From a virus, in the IMG/VR virus record IMGVR_UViG_3300033571_015810, positions 1 through 21,002 of that record: DNA of 21,002 bases; one strand, written 5' to 3'. The notes under the pieces are model-generated. The model made no database searches. It was not told the origin of the DNA and was given only the letters and a program-made list of their open reading frames with translations. Positions 1,231 to 12,382 of this stretch are shown one piece after another (position 1 is the first letter of the stretch; each line of letters opens with the position of its first letter). The translations under genes and the position numbers were made by a program.

Positions 1231-1784
1231 GATTGTCCCGCCTTCAAATAGTAAATATAGTTGCCGTCCCTTACGGGAATAGCCACTTCTGGCTCTGCTA
1301 CTGTGCCAATGCTAAGAGCATTTTGAACTGTAAAGCCGCTAGAAACAATTACATTATCTAACAAAATAGAAGTGGACGCAGTATTACCAGAAAAGGGCGC
1401 AGTGGCAAGAGATTGTACCGCCACTCCATTAATTTGTAAATTTTGTACTGCTAAGTTGCCATTAAGCGAATAATCTCCAACAGAAGATGGAGATGCACGC
1501 AACAGCGCATTATTTTGAAGGACAATACCAGATGCCACTTGCTGACTAACTGTATTGAGCCTTATTTGTACATTACTTGTAAGACCACGCAAAAGCAAAA
1601 GGTCCCTTGCGCTAACCCTGCTGATGCCAGTAATTGCAAGAATGTCCGCACCCTTAACGACAACTCCACTAGTCGTTACATTGTTAAAGGTGTAACTAAT
1701 GCTTGCGCCTAAATTATCCCAGGTTGATTCTGCGCTGCTAACATCAGAAAGATTTTGTGCTGCTACAAGTCCAACAAAGGCCAT
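1227..1784 (-). CDS. Small tail-fibre-like protein with NLSDV/WDNLG N-terminal module
   Basis: A 185-aa protein of unknown precise function. Residues 9-26 read AAQNLSDV...TWDNLG, a pattern widespread near the N-terminus or in repeats of phage tail fibres and adhesins. The rest is rich in V, S, T, N, L and G with alternating hydrophobic residues, as in beta-helical or beta-sandwich fibre proteins. It has no signal peptide, no clear membrane segment and no catalytic motif. It sits in the adhesion module: its ATG shares one base with the stop of the 793-aa gene (TAATG) and its own stop overlaps the next start (ATGA). The most likely role is a fibre shaft or adaptor; a fibre chaperone is possible but nothing specific supports it. 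Confidence 0.65.
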   Translation of the reverse strand: MAFVGLVAAQNLSDVSSAESTWDNLGASISYTFNNVTTSGVVVKGADILAITGISRVSARDLLLLRGLTSNVQIRLNTVSQQVASGIVLQNNALLRASPSSVGDYSLNGNLAVQNLQINGVAVQSLATAPFSGNTASTSILLDNVIVSSGFTVQNALSIGTVAEPEVAIPVRDGNYIYYLKAGQS

Positions 1785-4165
1785 TACTGTTCCTCCCAGT
1801 TAAGACTTGCACTGGCCTCTCCTGATGCAGTGCGAGCAGTGGCAACAACAAAAAGTGCGCCTGTGCTTTCAATGCTTCCAGGGCTGCCTGTTATAAACAT
1901 TTTATCGGGGCCAAACAATGAACTGAGGTCAAACGAACGACTTTCACCACTTCCTATAAAGTAAGTTGCAACGCGCTGACCTCCTCTCAGCACACGCAAT
2001 CCCTGCTTGTCTACTAATACTGCGCTCAATGGATCGGCAAGACTATCAACAAATTTATTCGCCACATAATCAGTGCCGCCTGCAGCCGTCGCATTTTCAG
2101 TAAAGCCACTGCTTAATGGCCAAGACGTTTGGGCCTGCGTAGAGCCGCTGCCAGGATAGAGTCGCACTGCTAATGGCTGCTGCGCCAACACCACGTCTGA
2201 TACCACGGCATCAGCATGAGCTTCTAACACCAAGCGAATAGGCCATGGCGAATTGCCCGAAATGGTAATTGAACGTCCTGCGGCGCTAATAGTAGTGGTG
2301 CCACTTGTTGGAAAAGTGATGGCAAAATCTGTGGCTTGATTGCAGCCAACCGAACTTGGAAATCTAGCTTCTCCCACCACCTGACCAATACGGTTAAATT
2401 GAAGCGCCGGATAATCAGAAGCCACCCATAACACAGGGTCTGACGATGGGTCGTAGGTAAGTCCTGATGCATTAGGCAGCAAGCCAATGCGTGCGTAGCC
2501 ACTGTCAAACCGTCTAAAAATTGTGCCTTGCGTTACGCCACTATCAACAAATCCACTGCTAACGACATAGTTATTCATCCGACCAAGAGTAATGCTTGTA
2601 ATCCCTCCGGGAAGCCCTCTATCGGTCGTAATGCGAGTGAGATCATCAGACAGCGAAGTTACATGAGTGGCGAGAATACCTGCCCCTACCACTTTCACTC
2701 GTCTGCCGCTTCTGTAGTCAACAGACCCGCCTAGTTCATTCCTAATGTCAGGAAAAAATTGTCCCGATGGCGTGGTAAGTGTATTGGCGTTTGTCCGAAT
2801 TACGGTAATTCCAGAGGCCGCATTTGCCGTTAGCGACGTGCCGTTGCCATAGAAATAACTTTCTCCGCCGCATATGCCATTTTCTTGAAAAACCAAATCA
2901 AAGCGCGTAGCAGTTGTTGCAAACACTGATAAATTAGCTGGAAACACCGATTTCTTATTTGCCACTCCATTAATGGTGCTCTTTACTTGCAAGCCAAGAA
3001 TGCTTTTAGGCGTGCTGTTGATTGGCTTCAAAGCATCAAGGCCTACGGCTCCAGTGGTAACAGTGCCTTTGTCGCCGCCATCAATGTAAACACTGCTGCC
3101 ATATAAATTGATGAAGGCAGGAGAAGTGGCACCTGCAGTGGTACGAGCCTCTACAAAAAGTTTTAAGAATGGATTGCGAAGACTAGGGAAGATGAATTGG
3201 TTTTCTGCAAAGAAATAATGCAACGCCACCCATCGAGCTTCGTCATGGTCAATTGGCACATAAGCTAAGAAACGGGCGCCAACGGCACCATACCAGCTAA
3301 ATTCAATTTTAAACATTGTCACGCGAGACAAGTCTAAGTTCCAGCCAGTATTGCCTTTATTGGGTTGAATAGGATCGCCATTCCAATCGTCACGACCAAT
3401 CTTTGCCGTGCCTAAGTCAGGCGAAGTGCGCACCACATACAAGTCACCGCCTTTATCAAGTTGAAAGAAATAACCATCTCCCACGTTATTTCTACACCCC
3501 CATCGCACTATCTCCCCTTCGTAATCACTGCCAGTTGACATTCTCACACCAAATGTAAAAGCAGTAACTCGTCCTGGTTGATAACGAAAAGCACGCTTAC
3601 TTTCCCAAAACGCAGTCATCGTGCCATCACTGCGACCGCCAGGAAACCGTCCTGTGTTGTCATCCACTAAATAAGTAAAGCTCAATGGTGGCGGAAAAGC
3701 ATAGGCTTGAATGGCGCTTTCTGCTTGAATGTGCCTCCAAAAATAGCCGTAGTCGTCAGCAAATGTCCAGTCAGTGGGATCTTGTGCATAGGCATAGCCA
3801 GCCGAAACTGGTCCAGAGTAAAACTCCTTATCATTAATACCATAAATATTCACTGCATCAAAAAGACCTAAAGCAGTTTCGCTGCGAGGAATTCCAAGCA
3901 AGCTAACTTCTACTTCGCTTTGACTATTATTAACAACATTTACGGGTACATCTGATTCCGTAGAGTTTGTCACCGTAACAGGCGTCAACCCTTCATCTTC
4001 AACAAGAACCAAAGTGCCTTTGGCATCTCCAGTGAGCACTTCTTGATCTAGCGGATCAATTAATGAATCGCCCGTCAGGAAATCAATTAATTCTGCATCA
4101 ATAAGATCACTGCCTGCGGGTTGAGCATCATCAGGCACTTGATAATATTCAGAAAAGCTTGTCAT
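1784..4165 (-). CDS. Large virion structural protein, cyanophage FRYQPGRV family (paralogue 2)
   Basis: A 793-aa protein. Scaffold motifs in order: SLLGIPRSETALGLFD (89-104), FRYQPGRVTAFTFGVR (193-208), MFKIEFSWYGAVGARFLAYV (284-303), YIDGGDKGTVT (360-370), LGLQVK (390-395), and a C-terminal RVATYFIGSG...SASLNWEEQ. All recur in the same order in the neighbouring 581-aa protein, so the two are tandem duplicates. This copy has an acidic N-terminal extension (about residues 1-50) and roughly 280 extra residues between about 420 and 720 that the neighbour lacks. From memory, proteins with this core are annotated as virion structural proteins in marine cyanophages. The likely role is a tail-tip or side-fibre component; the biochemical function is unknown. 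The start lies 6 bases after the upstream TAG. Confidence 0.75.
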   Translation of the reverse strand: MTSFSEYYQVPDDAQPAGSDLIDAELIDFLTGDSLIDPLDQEVLTGDAKGTLVLVEDEGLTPVTVTNSTESDVPVNVVNNSQSEVEVSLLGIPRSETALGLFDAVNIYGINDKEFYSGPVSAGYAYAQDPTDWTFADDYGYFWRHIQAESAIQAYAFPPPLSFTYLVDDNTGRFPGGRSDGTMTAFWESKRAFRYQPGRVTAFTFGVRMSTGSDYEGEIVRWGCRNNVGDGYFFQLDKGGDLYVVRTSPDLGTAKIGRDDWNGDPIQPNKGNTGWNLDLSRVTMFKIEFSWYGAVGARFLAYVPIDHDEARWVALHYFFAENQFIFPSLRNPFLKLFVEARTTAGATSPAFINLYGSSVYIDGGDKGTVTTGAVGLDALKPINSTPKSILGLQVKSTINGVANKKSVFPANLSVFATTATRFDLVFQENGICGGESYFYGNGTSLTANAASGITVIRTNANTLTTPSGQFFPDIRNELGGSVDYRSGRRVKVVGAGILATHVTSLSDDLTRITTDRGLPGGITSITLGRMNNYVVSSGFVDSGVTQGTIFRRFDSGYARIGLLPNASGLTYDPSSDPVLWVASDYPALQFNRIGQVVGEARFPSSVGCNQATDFAITFPTSGTTTISAAGRSITISGNSPWPIRLVLEAHADAVVSDVVLAQQPLAVRLYPGSGSTQAQTSWPLSSGFTENATAAGGTDYVANKFVDSLADPLSAVLVDKQGLRVLRGGQRVATYFIGSGESRSFDLSSLFGPDKMFITGSPGSIESTGALFVVATARTASGEASASLNWEEQ

Positions 4166-4171
4166 AGGTGC

Positions 4172-5917
4172 CTACACTTGCTCTTCCCATGTTAGGGAAG
4201 CGCTCATGTTTACACTTGTTCCAATGCCCTGAGCAAATACATAAAGAGTGTCACCAGTTACTGCTGTCAATGGATAGGAAAGATAGTCTTTGTTATAGCC
4301 AAAATACGGAGCTAAGTCAATATCAATACCGCCATCGCCAACAAAGAATGTTGCTACATTGGTGCCGCCAGTTAACGAAACCACCCCGCTTGTGGTGGTG
4401 AAATTTACTGGACTCAGAGTGCCAGCAGAGGAAAATGATGGGGTGCCAGAAACGGCTGTTGGCCCTTTAATTAATTTAACGACTGCTCTTCCACTGCTCC
4501 CCACCCCTAGACGGGTGGGATACACTTGCATGCGATTACGAATGGAGTTGATATTTTCCTTCACTTGCAAGCCAATAAGCATTGTGCCGCTAGTGGTTAC
4601 AGTGCGATCAGCGGCATTGCTTTCAGAACGAGCAGTGACTGTACCTTTATCGCCACCATCAATGTAATACGATGCGCCATATTTGTACAACGCACATTCG
4701 TTGGCACTTGTAGCCTTCTGTGCAAGGTAGGAGATGGGAAGCGTAGGGTTGGCAAGACTAGGACTCGTGAGCTGGTTAGAGGCCCGTATATGGTGCATCC
4801 GCGCCCATCGGGCCTCCCCTGTAGTAGTAGCATCAGGAACGTAAGCTAAAAAGTGGCCGCCTACGGCACCGTACCAGCTATATTCAATCTTGAACATTGT
4901 TACTTTTGAAAAGTCAATGTCCCAAATGCTTGTATCGGTGACAACATCTCCATTAATATCAATTACCGAACTGCCATTGGTGTAAGAAACTGTTGGATTA
5001 GAAGCAGTGCCCCCAATGGAAAGAGTAAATGAATTGCGTCCTGGAGTTTTATCTGCGTAATATTGAGCCTTGGTTTCGCCATCAAGGCGATCATGGCTGA
5101 AGTATTTGCGCGGCACTCGATATTCGTAGGTGTAGCGATAAGGCGTTTCTACAGAAATAAATGAACCCGAAACGCTTGTTGTACCATCAGAAGAAGCAAT
5201 ACTTCCAATGTTCACCCCTCCTGATCCCCTTACACTGCGATCAAACAAACCAGCGTGAATATAAGTAAGACCAGCGCGAACAATTACCAAATCAGTGCCA
5301 GCATTGCCAATATCTCCATCTGCAACATTAGGAGTGCGAATGCCAGGCTCATTGCTTTCAAAAGCACTGGTGCGCCTTACGCAATAGCAATTAAATTCTT
5401 TGCTTGCAGAATCCGTTTGCCCACCACCTTGCACTTCAACGTAATAACCATCACGCTTATCAAAAGCACCAAATTTTTTGATGTCAGTGGAATCATTAGA
5501 AGTGGTGGTCCTTACGCCAAATGTAGCGGCGCTGACTCGTCCTGGTTGGTAACGAAAGAAACGCCTGCTACTTAAAATTTGATAGTTATTAGTATTCGCT
5601 GTGCCAAGGACTACTTTCGCTGCGCTTTCATTGGGAATGTGTGTGGTGGCACCGCCACCTTCGCTTGCCCATTCATTTGGGTTGATGTCATAAGTGGTAA
5701 CATCAGCAAAAATGCCAAGTGCTACTTCAGCGCGGGGCACTCCAAGCAAACTCAAGCTAACTTCACTAATTTGCTGATTCGCCACTTCCACTGGTACTGG
5801 CGTCTGGTCAGAAGCAATTACCACTGGCAGACTGACTGCCATTGTTTGCTGACCAGGAGGAATTGGCGCTGTACGTCCTACCGTGACAACTGCTACGCCT
5901 TCTTTCAACTCAGCCAT
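4172..5917 (-). CDS. Virion structural protein, cyanophage FRYQPGRV family (paralogue 1)
   Basis: A 581-aa protein. The N-terminal segment VSLPVVIASDQTPVPVEV (28-45) is a common opening of phage structural proteins. It is followed by SLLGVPRAEVALGIF (56-70), FRYQPGRVSAATFGVR (121-136), MFKIEYSWYGAVGGHFLAYV (341-360), YIDGGDKGTVT (418-428), IGLQVK, and an ending with NVATFFVGDGG and SLTWEEQV. The same landmarks occur in the adjacent 793-aa protein. Between FRYQPGRV and WYGAVG this copy has about 130 more residues, including a Tyr/Arg-rich stretch (259-270). The upstream stop TGA runs into a ribosome binding site (TGAGGAAC then TATG), so translation is probably coupled. A role in an adhesion device is inferred from position; no enzymatic motif is visible. 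Confidence 0.75.
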   Translation of the reverse strand: MAELKEGVAVVTVGRTAPIPPGQQTMAVSLPVVIASDQTPVPVEVANQQISEVSLSLLGVPRAEVALGIFADVTTYDINPNEWASEGGGATTHIPNESAAKVVLGTANTNNYQILSSRRFFRYQPGRVSAATFGVRTTTSNDSTDIKKFGAFDKRDGYYVEVQGGGQTDSASKEFNCYCVRRTSAFESNEPGIRTPNVADGDIGNAGTDLVIVRAGLTYIHAGLFDRSVRGSGGVNIGSIASSDGTTSVSGSFISVETPYRYTYEYRVPRKYFSHDRLDGETKAQYYADKTPGRNSFTLSIGGTASNPTVSYTNGSSVIDINGDVVTDTSIWDIDFSKVTMFKIEYSWYGAVGGHFLAYVPDATTTGEARWARMHHIRASNQLTSPSLANPTLPISYLAQKATSANECALYKYGASYYIDGGDKGTVTARSESNAADRTVTTSGTMLIGLQVKENINSIRNRMQVYPTRLGVGSSGRAVVKLIKGPTAVSGTPSFSSAGTLSPVNFTTTSGVVSLTGGTNVATFFVGDGGIDIDLAPYFGYNKDYLSYPLTAVTGDTLYVFAQGIGTSVNMSASLTWEEQV

Positions 5918-5923
5918 AGTTCC

Positions 5924-6634
5924 TCAAGGAAAACAATTGGAGAAAGTGGTGCCAACAAAAATACTACCAGCCGCCACTGTGTCTTGTCTTAGTCTATAAA
6001 CACTTCCTCCAATAGCGGCGTTAGTAACGCCAGAAAGAGAAGCAATGGTAAAAGTATAAGGAGAAGCGTAACTGATGCCAGTTAAATTACTGTAAATACG
6101 AGCACTAGTGCCATTGTAATTTATGCCGCTAGTCGTGGTGCCACTAAATACTGCTCGCTCAGTGGCGCCCAGTCCGTGGTTGGTTTGTGCAATAAAAGTG
6201 CCGCCACTAACACTTACAAGGTCTGCAACATATTCCTGTTTTTCAATGCGAATGTCCCAAGTCAATGGAGAAGCCGACAAAGAATCGTTGGAATTTTCAA
6301 TGGTATAAGCAGTGGGAAAGAAAGCTTGACTGATATTGGCGGGACCAGCATCAGCGGCGGCATCCCAAATTAATGCTGTTTGCGCTGAAGTGAGCCAAAG
6401 TCTCACCTGACCATTACGAAGTGGTTCTTGTTCTTCAATGTTAAAAGAAGTGACTAGATCAGCAGTCGTAGCGCCTGTGCGTTTCCAAATGGCCGCGCAA
6501 ACTTGGACATCTCCTAAGTTAAAAGGCTCACCATCTTCATCTTGTAGCAAAAAGCTAACGCCATCAAAATAATCCCTGCGTAATAGCCGCAAGTCAATTT
6601 GAGGGGCCAAACTTGTAGCAACAAATACGCTCAT
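5924..6634 (-). CDS. Baseplate/adhesin protein with BppU-like N-domain and FCCH-like domain
   Basis: A 236-aa protein. Residues about 15-132 follow the pattern of the Ig-like N-terminal domain of phage upper baseplate proteins: an early RRDYFDGVSFLLQDEDGEPFNL segment followed by alternating strands ending in WDIRIEKQ. Residues about 140-215 (from LVSVSGGTFIAQTNHGL to YRLRQ) resemble the small beta domain often labelled ubiquitin-activating enzyme E1 FCCH-like in phage structural proteins: a 'NHGLG' turn, 'SGTTTSGINYNG', then a strand with 'YTFTIAS'. In phages this domain is a structural module, not an enzyme. The start overlaps the preceding stop as ATGA. The likely role is connecting the tail tip to the large structural proteins encoded downstream. 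Both domain calls rest on pattern recognition only. Confidence 0.65.
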   Translation of the reverse strand: MSVFVATSLAPQIDLRLLRRDYFDGVSFLLQDEDGEPFNLGDVQVCAAIWKRTGATTADLVTSFNIEEQEPLRNGQVRLWLTSAQTALIWDAAADAGPANISQAFFPTAYTIENSNDSLSASPLTWDIRIEKQEYVADLVSVSGGTFIAQTNHGLGATERAVFSGTTTSGINYNGTSARIYSNLTGISYASPYTFTIASLSGVTNAAIGGSVYRLRQDTVAAGSIFVGTTFSNCFP

Positions 6635-7041
6635 GTGAGAATTTCGCGGTAAGAAAGCATGACGGTGTAATTAGTGGTTCCGCTGACTACAGCATTTAAT
6701 TTCTCGCTGGTATTACTTTCAAATAATCCAAGGACGTTGTTTTGTGTCAAATTACCATTGTCACTAATGTGAAAAGGAGGCGTCTTGTCAGTGCTGCCAC
6801 CACTTTGTAGCTTTACAGTGCAGCCAGAGAGGGAAGTAATAGTAAGCGCCATCACTCGCAGTTTGCTGCCACTCACAGCAGTCACTACGTCCACGTTGCC
6901 ACTGGCAGAAACAAATGCGCTTTTCATCGCATTTGTCGTCAAGTCGTTTTGCACCGCATACGGATCACCGTCCGTTCCTGTGCCGGTGGCTTTTACATAG
7001 GCAATATTGCCAGCAGCATCAAGACCGAAAAGATTTGCCAT
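6631..7041 (-). CDS. Small beta-rich virion protein of unknown function
   Basis: A 136-aa protein that I cannot assign to a named family. It opens with FGLDAAGNIAYVKATGTGTDGDPYAVQND (residues 5-33); a GTGTDGDP-type turn followed by short strands is common in small phage structural proteins annotated as hypothetical. The remainder alternates hydrophobic and polar residues (for example SKLRVMALTITSLSG), consistent with a beta-sandwich, and one Cys is seen at about residue 74. It has no membrane segment or catalytic motif. The ATG follows the stop of the FN3 gene by one base (TGACATG), and its stop overlaps the next start. Position within the adhesion module suggests a tail-tip or fibre-associated protein; a capsid decoration role cannot be excluded. 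Confidence 0.6.
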   Translation of the reverse strand: MANLFGLDAAGNIAYVKATGTGTDGDPYAVQNDLTTNAMKSAFVSASGNVDVVTAVSGSKLRVMALTITSLSGCTVKLQSGGSTDKTPPFHISDNGNLTQNNVLGLFESNTSEKLNAVVSGTTNYTVMLSYREILT

Positions 7042-7042
7042 G

Positions 7043-7438
7043 TCAAATTACAAGAAACAAAAGACGTTGATTTGGAACAATGCTTCCGTTCGCCAATCTA
7101 ACATCCTGCGACAGCGTGAAATCAAAGACCAGGGGGCTAGATTGAGTGACCGTACTATAGGAATAAGCAGAACGCCGACCATTAACTCCAATTGTAGCAA
7201 TTCTAATGCGGTAAAGACTTTCGCCTACATACACATCAGAAGGGAATTGAATGTAACTGACATTGGTTTCGCCCACCCTTTTCCACTGCATATCTAACAT
7301 GTCCAAATAGTCCACTTCAAATCCTTTAATCAGTGGATTATTTTGAACAGTGTTCCAGCAAATTGCTGGATTGATAACATTTAAAATGGAATAGGCCGAA
7401 TATTGAGGAAAATCCCAGCTTGCTTCGTAGTTAGCCAT
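7043..7438 (-). CDS. Fibronectin type III-like tail tip protein (detached J-type domain)
   Basis: A 131-aa protein built mostly of one FN3-like domain. Landmarks are a Pro followed by Trp (NPAICW, about residues 23-28), GFEVDYLD strand B/C, KRVGETNVSYIQFP, then YRIRIATIGVNGRRSAYS, the Y-x-(V/I)-x-(A/I)-x-N-x-x-G signature of strands F and G. Lambda J and relatives carry FN3 domains directly after the conserved tip-forming region; here the upstream J-like gene stops and this gene begins in a TAATG overlap. The two products therefore probably act together at the tail tip, with this one extending the central fibre. The last 30 residues (after TQSSPLVFDF) are a beta-rich tail of unknown role. Confidence 0.7.
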   Translation of the reverse strand: MANYEASWDFPQYSAYSILNVINPAICWNTVQNNPLIKGFEVDYLDMLDMQWKRVGETNVSYIQFPSDVYVGESLYRIRIATIGVNGRRSAYSYSTVTQSSPLVFDFTLSQDVRLANGSIVPNQRLLFLVI

Positions 7439-9552
7439 TACACAATAGCTCCAACATTAATGGAGGATGTTTGCACTCGCGGAAGACCCAGCCCTTGAAC
7501 AGTCGAATTAATACTTTGCTGTAAAAACGTGCTTTCGTCTGTTTCAGTGAATTTGCTCTCATCGTAAAGCGTGGCAAGCACGGTCAACATTCCTTCGTCT
7601 TCGTTGACAGCTATGACTCTAAATAATCTCACGCTGTCCGAATTTTCCTGTAACACCCATGGAGCACCAGTCACTGCTTCTACGCTCAATGGCGTCACAA
7701 ATGGAATGTTGCTAGTGTCGCCAGACAGCACGGGCAGAGGTTTGGTTTCTACCACCCCACTTGCATTCATCACGGAAAGTTCATAGACGGAAGACGAAGA
7801 AAAAGTGAAAGGGGAGTCAATGGTAACTCCAGAAACTGTAGATGCAATCACCCTCCCCCCATAGCGCTTCCCTCCCTTTGATGGATCTGCAATGCCAATA
7901 ATTTCGCCTGGCAAGACAAAATTTCCCTCGGCTCCCAGCTTGAAAGTTACCGTTTCAGTTTCAAGCTGATCAGTCAGTAAGAGCCACCTTCCTAATCTTT
8001 GCGCCTGCCCTTGCGAAGTTGTCCCAAAAGCTCTCACTTCCTTTTCGTGATAGCCGTAGCGCAATAATCCAGCTCTATCTTCTACATATTCAATTTTAGT
8101 TTTATAGCGATCTTTGGGGTCATTCCAGCTTACTAGCGCCACTGTTTTGCGAGCCTTTCGTGCAGTGCCTTCATACAAGAAAGGAGGTTCCGTCGTGCGA
8201 CCGTCGTCTTCTGTTTTCTGATAGACGTTGGCAGGGGAATAAACCTTCGTAATAGATTTTGGCTTGTCTTGAACGGCAACAATAACGCCTTCGCTGAAAT
8301 AAAGCATTCCACGGAAAGATGCAGCCAGTGCATTTAGCACTTCATAAGCCTCTCCACGGTCGTTGATATAACCATTAAAAGTCAGTCGTGGCTCCATGCC
8401 GCCTTTGCCGTCCGAAACCAGCTCATCACAGTATTGGGCGATGGCAAAAAGGCTATAGCGATCAAGATTTGCTTCGGCAATAAATTGGCCGCACCCATAG
8501 CGCGTATTTGTCATCAAATCGTAAAAAATCCAGGCAGGATTATCAGTCCAATCAGTCTTAAAAGTGCCGTTCCAAATGCCCGAATATGTGCGAGTGTATG
8601 GATCGTAATTAGTGGGAATTTTAACCTTAATACCAAGAAGCTCTACTGCAATTTTTGGCACAGCAGTAAAATTTTCGGCGCCAACTTTAAGGCCAAGAAG
8701 GGCCGTATTAGGGTAACGATAGGCTTGATCATAAATTCCAATAATGGCCCTCCATAAAAGATCATTTTGAAGCTTAACGCTATCTGAGTCCGCTGTTTCT
8801 CTTGATAATGTAATTAACCATGGGCCAGAGCCAGAAAGTTTATATTCATATTCGTAATCAAATGGACCAGAACTTTTACCTTCAATTGTTTGAAGTTCAT
8901 TAACAATTAATGATCCACCTTCGGGTCTAATTTGAATGCGAAATTGTACTGAAGTGCCCCTGCTGTTTCCCTTATCGTCGGTACTGGTAAGAGCCGCTAC
9001 TCCTACTCTTAAGCGAATTCGATTGAAGTCTGCAGATGTAGTCACGCGAGTTGTTGCGCCCGCCGCTTGCGTCAAACGAGTGCCCACTGCCTGTTCAACT
9101 CGTACATCGTCAAAACCTGGCATTGCAGACTGGTCTTGCGTGCCCACGCGATAGTCAACCACTAACGAATTAATGGATTGAGTTTGACGAGTGGTTTGAG
9201 GACTTGGATTGTCTACATATGTCGTGCGACTAAAGGACGTGCCAGGATTCGCCTTGCCAGTGGCTATTCCACCCTTACCTGTTGCAACTTCATTGCTAAA
9301 AGTAGTAATTTGTTCTATTTCAAAATTGTATTCACCTAGCGCATTTTTAATTGGCACATCATCTAAAAAGATTTTCTTAAGTGGATCTTCGGTGTCCAAA
9401 AAACCCTTAACTTCTCCTTCAGAAAGGATGGAGACAGTTGACGATTGAGCGCGGCTTTTTAGCGTGTCAGGGCTTTCTTTGCCGCCGCCGCCACCACCAG
9501 CGCCTTGGATGGCAACAGACCATCCACCTTCAGTCATCTCATAATGTTCCAT
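7438..9552 (-). CDS. Tail tip attachment / host specificity protein, lambda gpJ-like (short)
   Basis: A 704-aa homologue of lambda J, the trimeric protein that closes the tail tip and contacts the host. The N-terminus has the family hallmark: a glycine run (GAGGGGGGKESPDTLKSR) followed by STVSILSEGEVKGF. The middle contains a strongly J-like segment, LTFNGYINDRGEAYEVLNALAA with MLYFSEGVIVAVQDKP (about residues 390-435), and later LGRWLLLTDQLETETVTFKL and VLPGEIIGIADP. The protein ends soon after the DESKFTETDE segment, where lambda J (about 1130 aa) continues into FN3 and receptor-binding regions, so the C-terminal part is missing and is partly replaced by the next gene. The start overlaps the I-like gene's stop (TAATG); a later start before the glycine run is possible but not needed. 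Confidence 0.88.
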   Translation of the reverse strand: MEHYEMTEGGWSVAIQGAGGGGGGKESPDTLKSRAQSSTVSILSEGEVKGFLDTEDPLKKIFLDDVPIKNALGEYNFEIEQITTFSNEVATGKGGIATGKANPGTSFSRTTYVDNPSPQTTRQTQSINSLVVDYRVGTQDQSAMPGFDDVRVEQAVGTRLTQAAGATTRVTTSADFNRIRLRVGVAALTSTDDKGNSRGTSVQFRIQIRPEGGSLIVNELQTIEGKSSGPFDYEYEYKLSGSGPWLITLSRETADSDSVKLQNDLLWRAIIGIYDQAYRYPNTALLGLKVGAENFTAVPKIAVELLGIKVKIPTNYDPYTRTYSGIWNGTFKTDWTDNPAWIFYDLMTNTRYGCGQFIAEANLDRYSLFAIAQYCDELVSDGKGGMEPRLTFNGYINDRGEAYEVLNALAASFRGMLYFSEGVIVAVQDKPKSITKVYSPANVYQKTEDDGRTTEPPFLYEGTARKARKTVALVSWNDPKDRYKTKIEYVEDRAGLLRYGYHEKEVRAFGTTSQGQAQRLGRWLLLTDQLETETVTFKLGAEGNFVLPGEIIGIADPSKGGKRYGGRVIASTVSGVTIDSPFTFSSSSVYELSVMNASGVVETKPLPVLSGDTSNIPFVTPLSVEAVTGAPWVLQENSDSVRLFRVIAVNEDEGMLTVLATLYDESKFTETDESTFLQQSINSTVQGLGLPRVQTSSINVGAIV

Positions 9553-10172
9553 TACGCGGGCACCTGATAAGTGGTCACAGACGAAGAAACGAGGGCTGGG
9601 GACGTGGCCAAATAACGGCCATAAACCAATGGCACTGGAGTGCCTTGTACGCTAGTTTCTGCGGCCTGGTCAAACAGAAAGCTTTCCTCTCTTCCTCCAT
9701 CCTTTGGCGTGGGCGTTAGCAGCTCCGCAATGCCAGTAAATAGCAGCGTTGCGCCAAGCTTGAAAAGAATCATGCTTCCTGCCGCCGTGAAGGCAGGTAC
9801 TGCAGCGGCTGTACTAGTAGCCGCCAGTCCTCCCACGCCAGCAAAAGCCCCTGCACCAAAGCTCACAAAAGACAATGCAATGAGGCCAATGCCAAGTAAA
9901 ATCTTGCCAGTAGCGCCCCCTCCCATCACCATTGGAGCAATAATTAACCTTTTGCAAGGCATCACAGCATTCTCATAAGCCATTCCCTCAGGATCGTCGT
10001 CTACCAGCTTAAAAGCCACGTTTTTTTCATGAGCCTCACATAGATATTGCTTGAATCCTGCTAATTGATTAGACAATGCAGAAATGACATCACGAGGACT
10101 GTCTGCTACAAATTCGTAGTGACGACCAAATTTTTGGCCGAGATCCCCTAGTAGTTTTACTTGTATCAACAT
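9552..10172 (-). CDS. Tail assembly protein, lambda gpI-like
   Basis: A 206-aa homologue of lambda I when started at the ATG at 10172. The N-terminus reads MLIQVKLLGDLGQKFGRHYEF, the ubiquitin-like opening typical of this family. The middle is a glycine/alanine-rich hydrophobic stretch (GKILLGIGLIALSFVSFGAG and following, about residues 88-150) and the end has the conserved TSVQGTPVPLVYGR. The frame is open upstream to 10232, but that would overlap the K-like gene by 59 bases. The chosen start sits one base after the K stop (TGACATG) and is preceded by AAGGAA about 10 bases away. In lambda, I is needed for tail tip assembly but is not found in the mature virion; a similar accessory role is inferred. 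Confidence 0.85.
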   Translation of the reverse strand: MLIQVKLLGDLGQKFGRHYEFVADSPRDVISALSNQLAGFKQYLCEAHEKNVAFKLVDDDPEGMAYENAVMPCKRLIIAPMVMGGGATGKILLGIGLIALSFVSFGAGAFAGVGGLAATSTAAAVPAFTAAGSMILFKLGATLLFTGIAELLTPTPKDGGREESFLFDQAAETSVQGTPVPLVYGRYLATSPALVSSSVTTYQVPA

Positions 10173-10173
10173 G

Positions 10174-10905
10174 TCACAGTAGTTCCTTATGCCGCAGCAC
10201 CTTGTTGGTATGCTTTGCCCAATACCCACCATAAACGTTCTCTTCAGAAAAACGATCTAAAAGATGATGGTAAAAAATATTACGAGAGGGATTGACGAGA
10301 ACACCCGTGTGATTTGGAAAAGGAGACTGTAACTGCATTAAAAGCATGTCTCCTTTTCTTTCTGCGTCATCCACTTCCACAAAGCCTTGATCCTTTACAT
10401 TTTTTTCAAACATGCGCCATTCTGGACTGGTCCATTCAAACTCTGCGCCACGATCATAATCTGCAAGTTCAATATTAAACTCGCGCTTATAAAAATCTCT
10501 AAATAGCGAATAGCAATCATAAATGCCATACACCCATGGCCTCCCTAAGAACGGAGCGCTTCCAGAAGGATCGGCATACGACCATTCACTTGTTCCTAGG
10601 CAGAACATTACCCATGGCGTTTGCGAAACCTTGCAACTCTTTACGTCTTCAAAACTGAACTTTGATTGCTTGTCAATATGCGAATGAAATATTGCTTGGA
10701 TGCGCCCTTTCTTTTCAATTCGAGCATAGTCTTTTGCTGCAATAGCAAAAAACTGGGAGGGCGATGGATGAGTATTTTTACAAGGCCAATATTTGTTTGC
10801 AGCAATAATCCCGCAAACTTCCTGCCCTGGCAATGACATTGCATGTTCGCGCATTGCTGGCTTTAATGCCGCAAAGGGAAAAAACGGGCCAGAAGAGGTG
10901 GGCAT
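10174..10905 (-). CDS. Tail tip assembly peptidase, lambda gpK-like (JAMM + NlpC/P60)
   Basis: A 243-aa homologue of lambda K with two hydrolase domains. The N-terminal JAB/MPN domain has a complete metal-binding JAMM signature: Glu29 (GQEVCG) and H74-S-H76, seven residues, S84, two residues, D87. The C-terminal NlpC/P60 domain has the nucleophile Cys131 in YGIYDCYSLFRDFY, His199 in PNHTGVLV, and a HisHis at 213-214 where relatives have the third active residue. Family knowledge: such proteins help assemble the tail tip and may cut peptidoglycan peptides during DNA entry; the substrate here is inferred. Length is close to that of lambda K (about 200-240 aa). The start overlaps the L-like stop (TAATG). 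Confidence 0.88.
   Translation of the reverse strand: MPTSSGPFFPFAALKPAMREHAMSLPGQEVCGIIAANKYWPCKNTHPSPSQFFAIAAKDYARIEKKGRIQAIFHSHIDKQSKFSFEDVKSCKVSQTPWVMFCLGTSEWSYADPSGSAPFLGRPWVYGIYDCYSLFRDFYKREFNIELADYDRGAEFEWTSPEWRMFEKNVKDQGFVEVDDAERKGDMLLMQLQSPFPNHTGVLVNPSRNIFYHHLLDRFSEENVYGGYWAKHTNKVLRHKELL
10183..10188 (-). promoter_or_regulatory. Ribosome binding site of the gpI-like gene
   Basis: The minus strand reads AAGGAA here, 10 bases before the ATG at 10172. It decides between that start and an upstream in-frame ATG at 10232, which lies inside the K-like gene. Confidence 0.6.
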
Positions 10906-12023
10906 TATTTTTGTAGAGACGCGCCTGGAAAGCCTCCAAATGGCAAGGCTTGACGGGGAAACCTAAGTTTACAGCTAGAAGTTCGCTTGCCACAAACGTC
11001 TAGTTGCCAAACGGGGTCATCCTCTGGTAGTGCGGCTAATGCAGCATTGTAATTATTTACTGCCGTATCATAAGCGGCTTGTGCTGCAGACAATGCCGCC
11101 TCTGCACTGTTGTAAGCAGCAGTAGCGTTAGTACATCTTGTTGAACTAAAACCCCAGGTTTCAAGCTCGTACCTTCTTTGCCCATTGACGATAGTTCTCT
11201 GTTGTCCCGCCCTGACAGAACTTGTTAACGCAACGGGAGTTCCATTTCGGAATGCTCTATTGCCTTCTACAAAAGTGCCAAGAATAGTATCAAAAATAGA
11301 ACCAAGAAATGAAAAGGAATTACACGCCCGCTCTTTGTCTTCAAAAGCTTTATTGCGATTTCTTTTTGTAATTTCTAATTCAGCGTAACGCCTTTCTTTA
11401 ACAGAAAAAGTATTCATAAGATTGGTGGCAGCAGCGGATAATCCACTTGTGCTTAACATGACATCTCTGTCCGTAAACAATGGGGCGCCCGTATAACCAC
11501 ATTCACTACTTCTGTAGCGCCATAGACATAAATTTTGAGCAATAATACGACGAGGAATTTTTAGACCTTCTAAGTCCAAAATACTTGCAAGTTCCCAAGT
11601 AATAGTTAATGCATTTTCCTGGGATTTTCTTTCAATGTAATAAATATCAATTGGCAGTTCTTGAAGAGGATCGGCTCCTGGTTCTCCATCTAAATATTTA
11701 CCAAGAGTGCGGCGCCTGGTTACTTTGGCACCCACCATGTCTTCGTAATTTTTAATAAGCTCACTAAAAGTGCCCAGCACATTGGCCACCGTTAAAGACG
11801 GTTGCTCAATTTGCCCTGAAGTGCTTTTTTCGTAGCCAGTAGCAATAATGGGCAATGGCTCATAAATATTCCCTTTCCATTGAATTTTTGTGTCATCAGG
11901 CTTGAGTTGATTTGAAAAATAATAAACGTCGTTACTATCGCCAGTGATAGGCGAAAGGTCCACGTCAAATAATTCAACGATGGCATCGTGCCACCCCTGT
12001 TGCACATCAATTTCTAAGCTCAT
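10905..12023 (-). CDS. Minor tail protein, lambda gpL-like, with insertion in the Fe-S site
   Basis: A 372-aa homologue of lambda L (232 aa), the tail-tip protein that carries a [4Fe-4S] cluster. The N-terminal domain (about 1-160) includes SGQIEQPSLTVANVLG and PIDIYYIERK...WELASILDLEGLKIPRR, typical of the family. The four cluster cysteines are recognisable as C166 and C175 (LCLWRYRSSECGYTGAPLF) and C344 and C351 (DVCGKRTSSCKLRF), followed by the usual LPFGGFPGA ending. The pairs, normally a few tens of residues apart, are separated here by 168 residues containing charged and alanine-rich helical stretches (about 205-235 and 298-332) and two extra cysteines (C234, C297). The insertion accounts for the unusual length. 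The gene starts 5 bases after the M-like stop. Confidence 0.87.
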   Translation of the reverse strand: MSLEIDVQQGWHDAIVELFDVDLSPITGDSNDVYYFSNQLKPDDTKIQWKGNIYEPLPIIATGYEKSTSGQIEQPSLTVANVLGTFSELIKNYEDMVGAKVTRRRTLGKYLDGEPGADPLQELPIDIYYIERKSQENALTITWELASILDLEGLKIPRRIIAQNLCLWRYRSSECGYTGAPLFTDRDVMLSTSGLSAAATNLMNTFSVKERRYAELEITKRNRNKAFEDKERACNSFSFLGSIFDTILGTFVEGNRAFRNGTPVALTSSVRAGQQRTIVNGQRRYELETWGFSSTRCTNATAAYNSAEAALSAAQAAYDTAVNNYNAALAALPEDDPVWQLDVCGKRTSSCKLRFPRQALPFGGFPGASLQK

Positions 12024-12028
12024 GATGG

Positions 12029-12382
12029 TTATGAACGAGGGTCGTAAATTCGCTTCACTGCAAAGCTTAAAATATTGCTATTGGGTCCAACGACTCGCCA
12101 CTCCCACTCTGGGGGATCTAAACGATATTTGTATTTTTGGTCATCCATGAAAAACTGTGAATAAAAGAAATCACCCTGCAGTGAGCTTAGTTGAGAATCA
12201 AGAGCAATGGCAGTGGAATCAGTGATTGGTGCAGTTTCAATGGTATAACTGCGCATTTCATTGTTAATGCCATCGGGACTGACTTGCTCATAGCCATCTC
12301 CAAATTGCACTTTTTTAATGCGCGTTCCTTTGCGGGCCGTGAGGCCATATAGACAAGGAATGGCAAATGTTGGTTGTGTCAT
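12029..12382 (-). CDS. Minor tail protein, lambda gpM-like
   Basis: A 117-aa protein of the phage minor tail protein family that includes lambda M (about 109 aa). The diagnostic segment is KKVQFGDGYEQVSPDGINNE (residues 24-43), followed by a conserved aromatic strand region (GDFFYSQFFMDDQKYKYRLDPPEWEW) and a short C-terminal strand (NILSFAVKRIYDP). Family knowledge: M works with L at the junction between the tail tip and the tube's first rings. The start codon lies 3 bases after the tape measure stop, and the L-like gene follows after 5 bases, reproducing the lambda order H-M-L-K-I-J. Confidence 0.85.
   Translation of the reverse strand: MTQPTFAIPCLYGLTARKGTRIKKVQFGDGYEQVSPDGINNEMRSYTIETAPITDSTAIALDSQLSSLQGDFFYSQFFMDDQKYKYRLDPPEWEWRVVGPNSNILSFAVKRIYDPRS

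Follow-up and report, generated by a model that had tools for sequence, protein, structure and literature searches.

In the tail tip of phage lambda, the iron-sulfur cluster domain of the hub protein gpL lies on the outer surface, and the role of this domain in gpL proteins was stated to be uncharacterised (PMC10721106). In the hub proteins of RcGTA (g13) and R4C, the iron-sulfur domain is split by an oligosaccharide-binding domain of about 82 residues, which was proposed to bind host saccharides (PMC7296036, PMC10276861). The upper baseplate protein gp50 of JBD30 holds a metal through Cys147, 156, 238 and 245, with 81 residues between the two pairs, and forms the side-fibre attachment site together with the distal tail protein (PMC11445458); its metal site therefore closes across an insertion. 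Insertion at this hub site with the metal site kept is already known from RcGTA, R4C and JBD30. In siphophages of Gram-positive bacteria, evolved Dit proteins with carbohydrate-binding modules are described as a case where an accessory binding module in the tail-tip core aids adsorption (PMC10688798).

Here we analysed a window of 21,002 nucleotides of viral DNA (IMG/VR record IMGVR_UViG_3300033571_015810), in which a hub protein of this family carries a long insert, predicted to form a helical hairpin (the stalk) and a beta head. The window hub shares with lambda gpL (PDB 8iyk, E=2e-26) the family, the four cluster cysteines and the gene neighbourhood, and with the F2-pyocin protein BHP (25vf, E=4e-35) the family and the four cluster cysteines. 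However, lambda gpL has about 22 residues between its cysteine pairs, and neither hairpin, head nor the two further cysteines found at the stalk-head junction of the window hub. As in RcGTA g13 and the R4C hub, an extra domain splits the cluster domain of the window hub in two, and the model of the window hub matched the native RcGTA particle chain 6tba_7A (292 residues) with Foldseek (E=3e-3); their insert has an oligosaccharide-binding fold, which the predicted stalk and head of the window do not match. JBD30 gp50 differs by a shorter insert, for which a stalk-and-head plan is not described. With evolved Dit there is an analogy only, since the core protein, the module fold and the hosts differ. 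The same kind of insert as in the window is found in the L-like proteins of S-CBS4 (465 aa) and S-2L (435 aa), which are annotated as minor tail protein only; unlike in the window, the S-CBS4 head is long and the S-2L protein is without both junction cysteines. In the literature searched, a helical stalk with a swappable head at the gpL site was not found.

The hub gene and its insertion

The hub open reading frame starts with ATG, stays open throughout and encodes 372 residues with cysteines at 166, 175, 234, 297, 344 and 351. The protein matched Pfam PF05100 over its N-terminal hub domain (E=6e-50, residues 31-195), the match ending at residue 195 because the insert begins there, and PHROG 18 (E=5e-79). 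The gene order of the window is lambda-like (TMP-M-L-K-I-J), with the hub gene between M and K. Judged by profiles and synteny, the 372-residue protein is a homologue of gpL. The tail-tip genes are as follows, and the genes 3' of J are virion structural genes (7043-7438, 6631-7041, p236, p581 and p793).

12029..12382, minus strand: gpM-like distal tail protein, 117 aa (PHROG 14, Pfam PF05939)
10905..12023, minus strand: gpL-like tail-tip hub protein with insert, 372 aa (Pfam PF05100, PHROG 18, M-L-K-I-J synteny)
10174..10905, minus strand: gpK-like protein with JAB and NlpC/P60 domains (PHROG and Pfam profile matches)
9552..10232, minus strand: gpI-like plug protein (PHROG 32)
7438..9552, minus strand: gpJ-like central protein, 704 aa (PHROG 31, Pfam FNIII-A_GpJ)

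The initial annotation had placed four cluster cysteines at C166, C175, C344 and C351 with 168 residues between the pairs, from C175 to C344, and the translation confirmed both points. From CGY to CGKR, the window hub has 166 residues and its insert-less close relatives exactly 20, which therefore indicates a true insertion of about 146 residues. A [4Fe-4S] cluster at the four cysteines, including its closure across the insert, is putative; the AlphaFold2 core of the window hub has pLDDT below 50 at residues 148-176 and over most of 345-372. The parts of the hub around the insert are the following.

11526..12023, minus strand: N-terminal hub (HDI-like) domain through C166, aligning to lambda gpL (8iyk_L) and F2-pyocin BHP
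11499..11528, minus strand: first cluster cysteine pair, C166 and C175 (CLWRYRSSECGY), both invariant in alignment A1
11004..11462, minus strand: insert relative to lambda-type homologues, about residues 188-340, placed by spacing in insert-less close relatives
10971..10994, minus strand: second cluster cysteine pair, C344 and C351 (CGKRTSSC), at least 90% conserved in alignment A1

To define how widespread the insert is, we sampled 17 cultured phage proteins across the hit list and compared the spacing of their cysteine pairs. Four recognisable cysteines with 21-23 residues between the pairs, and no hairpin, were found in 13 of them, and two (L338C and MED4-117) did not show the four-cysteine pattern. 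Long gaps were present only in the cyanophages S-2L (181 residues) and S-CBS4 (260 residues; host Synechococcus CB0101), which are the only cultured carriers of the insert found. The S-2L protein (MW334946) is the annotated minor tail protein S2L_46. Among IMG/VR relatives, for the most part metagenomic fragments with no assigned host, the hairpin insert was detected in at least 52 distinct versions, and most cyanophage-like relatives of the window hub have it. Genome contigs yielded four homologues, and the only one with four readable cysteines, from a Methylophaga MAG, has a short loop and no hairpin. The statement that relatives have a few tens of residues at this place is thus correct for lambda-type proteins and fails for the cyanophage-like ones. 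The rarity first attributed to the insert is likewise weakened, both by the 52 or more distinct relatives that have it and by the other insertions at this site in RcGTA, R4C and JBD30.

The insert is kept at 83-86% protein identity in relatives, and its approximate dN/dS is 0.16, vs 0.03 for the N-terminal core, with synonymous sites near saturation. The insert is therefore real and coding, and not the product of chance or of a misread frame.

Stalk, head and junction cysteines

We ran AlphaFold2 for the window hub on a 27-sequence alignment. The insert was predicted as a helix (residues 197-235), strands (238-291) and a second helix (294-331), with pLDDT mostly 81-97. Its elements are listed here.

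11319..11435, minus strand: stalk helix 1, 39 residues (197-235), with C234 near its end (pLDDT mostly 81-91)
11322..11324, minus strand: junction cysteine C234, placed by its spacing to the second cluster cysteine in relatives
11145..11318, minus strand: beta head, residues 236-293, which is hypervariable in relatives and swapped among them (AlphaFold2 strands, pLDDT 89-93; identities)
11133..11135, minus strand: junction cysteine C297, placed by its spacing to the third cluster cysteine in relatives
11031..11144, minus strand: stalk helix 2, 38 residues (294-331), alanine-rich, with C297 near its start (pLDDT about 84-97)

A longer insert from a relative (L024), predicted alone, gave a helix at residues 19-56, strands at 63-203 and a helix at 207-243 with a mean pLDDT of 86.5 in the top-ranked model, the only confident one of five (the others had mean pLDDT of 61-70). 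This repeats the plan of the window with a larger head and supports the stalk-plus-head fold. The hairpin-plus-head fold of the insert thus remains a prediction, drawn from these models. Both models place a cysteine where helix 1 ends and another where helix 2 begins. Among 52 distinct inserts, the first junction cysteine follows the second cluster cysteine by 58 to 74 positions, mostly 59 or 60, and the last precedes the third cluster cysteine by 47 to 50, mostly 47; the window hub, with 59 from C175 to C234 and 47 from C297 to C344, is the same as most of them. The segment between the junction cysteines is short (61-85 residues) in 37 inserts and long (140-170) in the other 15. Both cysteines are missing together in L006 and in S-2L. 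A near-constant stalk, a variable head and paired junction cysteines can therefore be read directly from the sequences, and the window hub belongs to what we define here as the hairpin-and-head hub inserts of cyanophage-like siphophages. The earlier description of a helical insert with two extra cysteines was right about the helices and the presence of C234 and C297; it had overlooked the beta head (238-291) and the fact that the cysteines are a conserved pair at the stalk-head junction. A C234-C297 disulfide would probably clamp the outer end of the stalk.

A known binding domain was sought in the hub and its insert with Pfam, which returned nothing besides PF05100, and in the long insert alone with Foldseek, which gave no significant PDB match. 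Foldseek searches with the window model likewise found no known binding domain in the head, which has no detectable homologue whose function is known. Weak Foldseek similarities to the flagellar proteins FlgL and FliD (E about 0.1) and to Rad50 and Ku coils were taken as chance.

Other grafts on the hub were also detected. In a second group of relatives (L042-L068), unrelated sequences of 91-343 residues occupy the same hub site; at their C-terminal end is a YxxGdyVY...KYYyV...PPNxxYW motif, chitin-binding-like by eye; a Pfam search of these inserts gave no match for this motif, and a viral Foldseek match, A0A6J5N8N2, is named a ChiA1_BD-domain protein. In three other relatives (L072-L074), about 400 extra residues follow residue 112 or so of the hub domain, and the cysteine loop is short. 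In L006 (IMGVR_UViG_3300049917_000079, L006:1201-3330), a 710-residue frame fuses an N-terminal esterase of the alpha/beta-hydrolase type (PF20434 BD-FAE, E=1e-27, with a GHSAG motif) to a gpL part 86% identical to the window hub. A second esterase-L fusion was not found in viral contigs.

Gain, loss and exchange of the insert

Trees were built from K, I and J, from the L core without the insert, and from the L core with K, I and J on 61 rows. In all three, insert-less hubs are nested inside insert-bearing clades, and the 61-row tree needs five changes, four of them forced by supported branches. The simplest history is an early gain in the group, then repeated loss or recombinational replacement. 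Since insert-less clades are nested in this way and several clades have lost the insert, it is dispensable for building the tail tip and not essential. Some rows, mostly those whose L is insert-less, also encode a tripled gpM, in which three gpM-like domains form a single chain of about 337 residues (L019:276-1292, L137:1955-3001, L141:202-1215, L143:1988-3001 and L091:1952-3001).

We then compared the parts of the hub. Identity among the 37 short-head proteins averages 0.74 for the core, 0.46 and 0.51 for the two helices and 0.31 for the head. Close pairs show this sharply: protein identity is 0.99 in the core, 0.95 in helix 2 and 0.37 in the head for L097/L110, and 0.97, 0.97 and 0.32 for L014/L110, while L085/L096 have 0.97 in the core and 0.44 in the head with helices that are also divergent (0.62 and 0.59). 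At the DNA level, blastn aligned L097 and L110 in two blocks of 94% and 90% identity, together about 4.4 kb, and only a 208-base island, which covers the head and the last part of helix 1, interrupts the match. The L014/L110 and L085/L096 alignments also break at the head, the former with one more break, upstream of L. Across M, L, K, I and J, the least conserved 30-codon window falls in L in 65 of 94 close pairs, and in the head in 43 of these 65; the pairs are not independent and go back to a small number of swaps, and N-terminal length differences (L006, L033/L035) account for some few of the L windows. No swap was seen in the close group of the window itself, where head and helices evolve at similar rates. 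As the heads differ in length and share little DNA, their exchange between lineages by recombination is likelier than diversity-generating mutagenesis.

Proposed role and neighbouring genes

We consider it rather probable that the insert is an accessory appendage, present in three copies on the outer face of the tail tip, with a clamped helical stalk and a swappable head that contacts the host. The stalk would consist of two antiparallel helices, each about 38 residues long, that are grafted into the hub's iron-sulfur domain; its outer end would probably be clamped by the C234-C297 disulfide, with the beta head on top. Rooted at the outer cluster domain, the three hairpins would stand out from the cone; we infer both this exposure and host binding by the head. 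Most likely, the head would contact a glycan or protein of the cell surface, weakly and in a host-specific manner, before the phage engages its central receptor, and head alleles would be exchanged between lineages by recombination. The window phage probably infects cyanobacteria, and since the only cultured carriers are cyanophages, cyanobacterial cell surfaces are the likely target of its appendage too. The host-contact reading is weakened because Pfam and Foldseek gave the insert no sequence or fold match to any binding domain, and because the head evolves no faster than the stalk in the window's close group.

Under selection by varied hosts, a binding surface should become hypervariable and be exchanged, and a docking site for the phage's own fibres should be conserved. 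The initial annotation had offered host contact or fibre docking, and the hypervariable, swapped head therefore favours the former. The hairpin might still serve as an arm on which side fibres, or another tail protein of the phage whose gene lies downstream of J, would dock, given the virion structural genes that follow J in the window, the nearly constant stalk length and the attachment site formed by gp50 in JBD30 (PMC11445458); we regard this as unlikely, because the head, which should then be conserved, is the most variable part and is exchanged among phages that are otherwise nearly identical. The first gene 3' of J (131 aa), tried as an obligate partner of the insert, was rejected, being found both with and without it. 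It is also improbable that the insert lies along the cone as a brace, to stabilise the hub or connect it with M or J, and that its head varies by drift. Constant stalk spacing and alanine-rich helices would suit packing, the dN/dS of the insert is low, and a tripled M, found in 5 of 14 insert-less rows vs 1 of 44 insert-bearing rows, hints at shared space. However, drift does not produce an isolated stretch of about 30% DNA identity within DNA that is 90-97% identical, and compensation of the insert by the tripled M was rejected, as only 4 independent pairs are available, the association is not significant (median p 0.5) and L091 has both.

Localised allelic swaps would also be expected if variation of the head served to avoid being recognised, by the host or by rival phages (receptor masking, superinfection exclusion), and not to bind a receptor. 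This we hold to be very unlikely: we know of no recognition system against the gpL cluster-domain site, and the repeated grafting of binding or enzyme domains on the hub (RcGTA, R4C, the L006 esterase) points to adhesion. That the insert is an intein or an unremoved intron without a role in the virion was rejected and has hardly any probability left. A conserved domain is indeed interrupted, and the insert is present or absent in otherwise similar genes, but Pfam gave no intein match, the frame stays open, and a conserved helical hairpin with constant spacing, under purifying selection, is what a folded domain would show.

If the head does contact the host, the hub itself would carry a host-range determinant, distinct from the central and side fibres. 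The data suggest that the iron-sulfur domain is the mount for an exchangeable head in one large aquatic phage group. More tentatively, and short of what we would call probable, the outer iron-sulfur domain of gpL-type proteins may be a general graft site, which cyanophage-like siphophages use for a disulfide-clamped stalk bearing an allelic, recombining host-recognition head in three copies per virion. The head segment, of about 60-170 residues, offers a short, defined target for cyanophage host specificity, with natural insert-less relatives for comparison.

Downstream of J, two adjoining genes of the window (1784-4165, 793 aa, and 4172-5917, 581 aa) encode virion structural paralogues of PHROG 1645, 35-41% identical over several stretches, which are possible adhesins. 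Finally, L007 and L008, with tail tips otherwise 98-99% identical, differ sharply in the hydrophobic plug segment of gpI (about residues 115-165), as do L094 and L110. This segment is another exchangeable cassette and does not depend on the L head.
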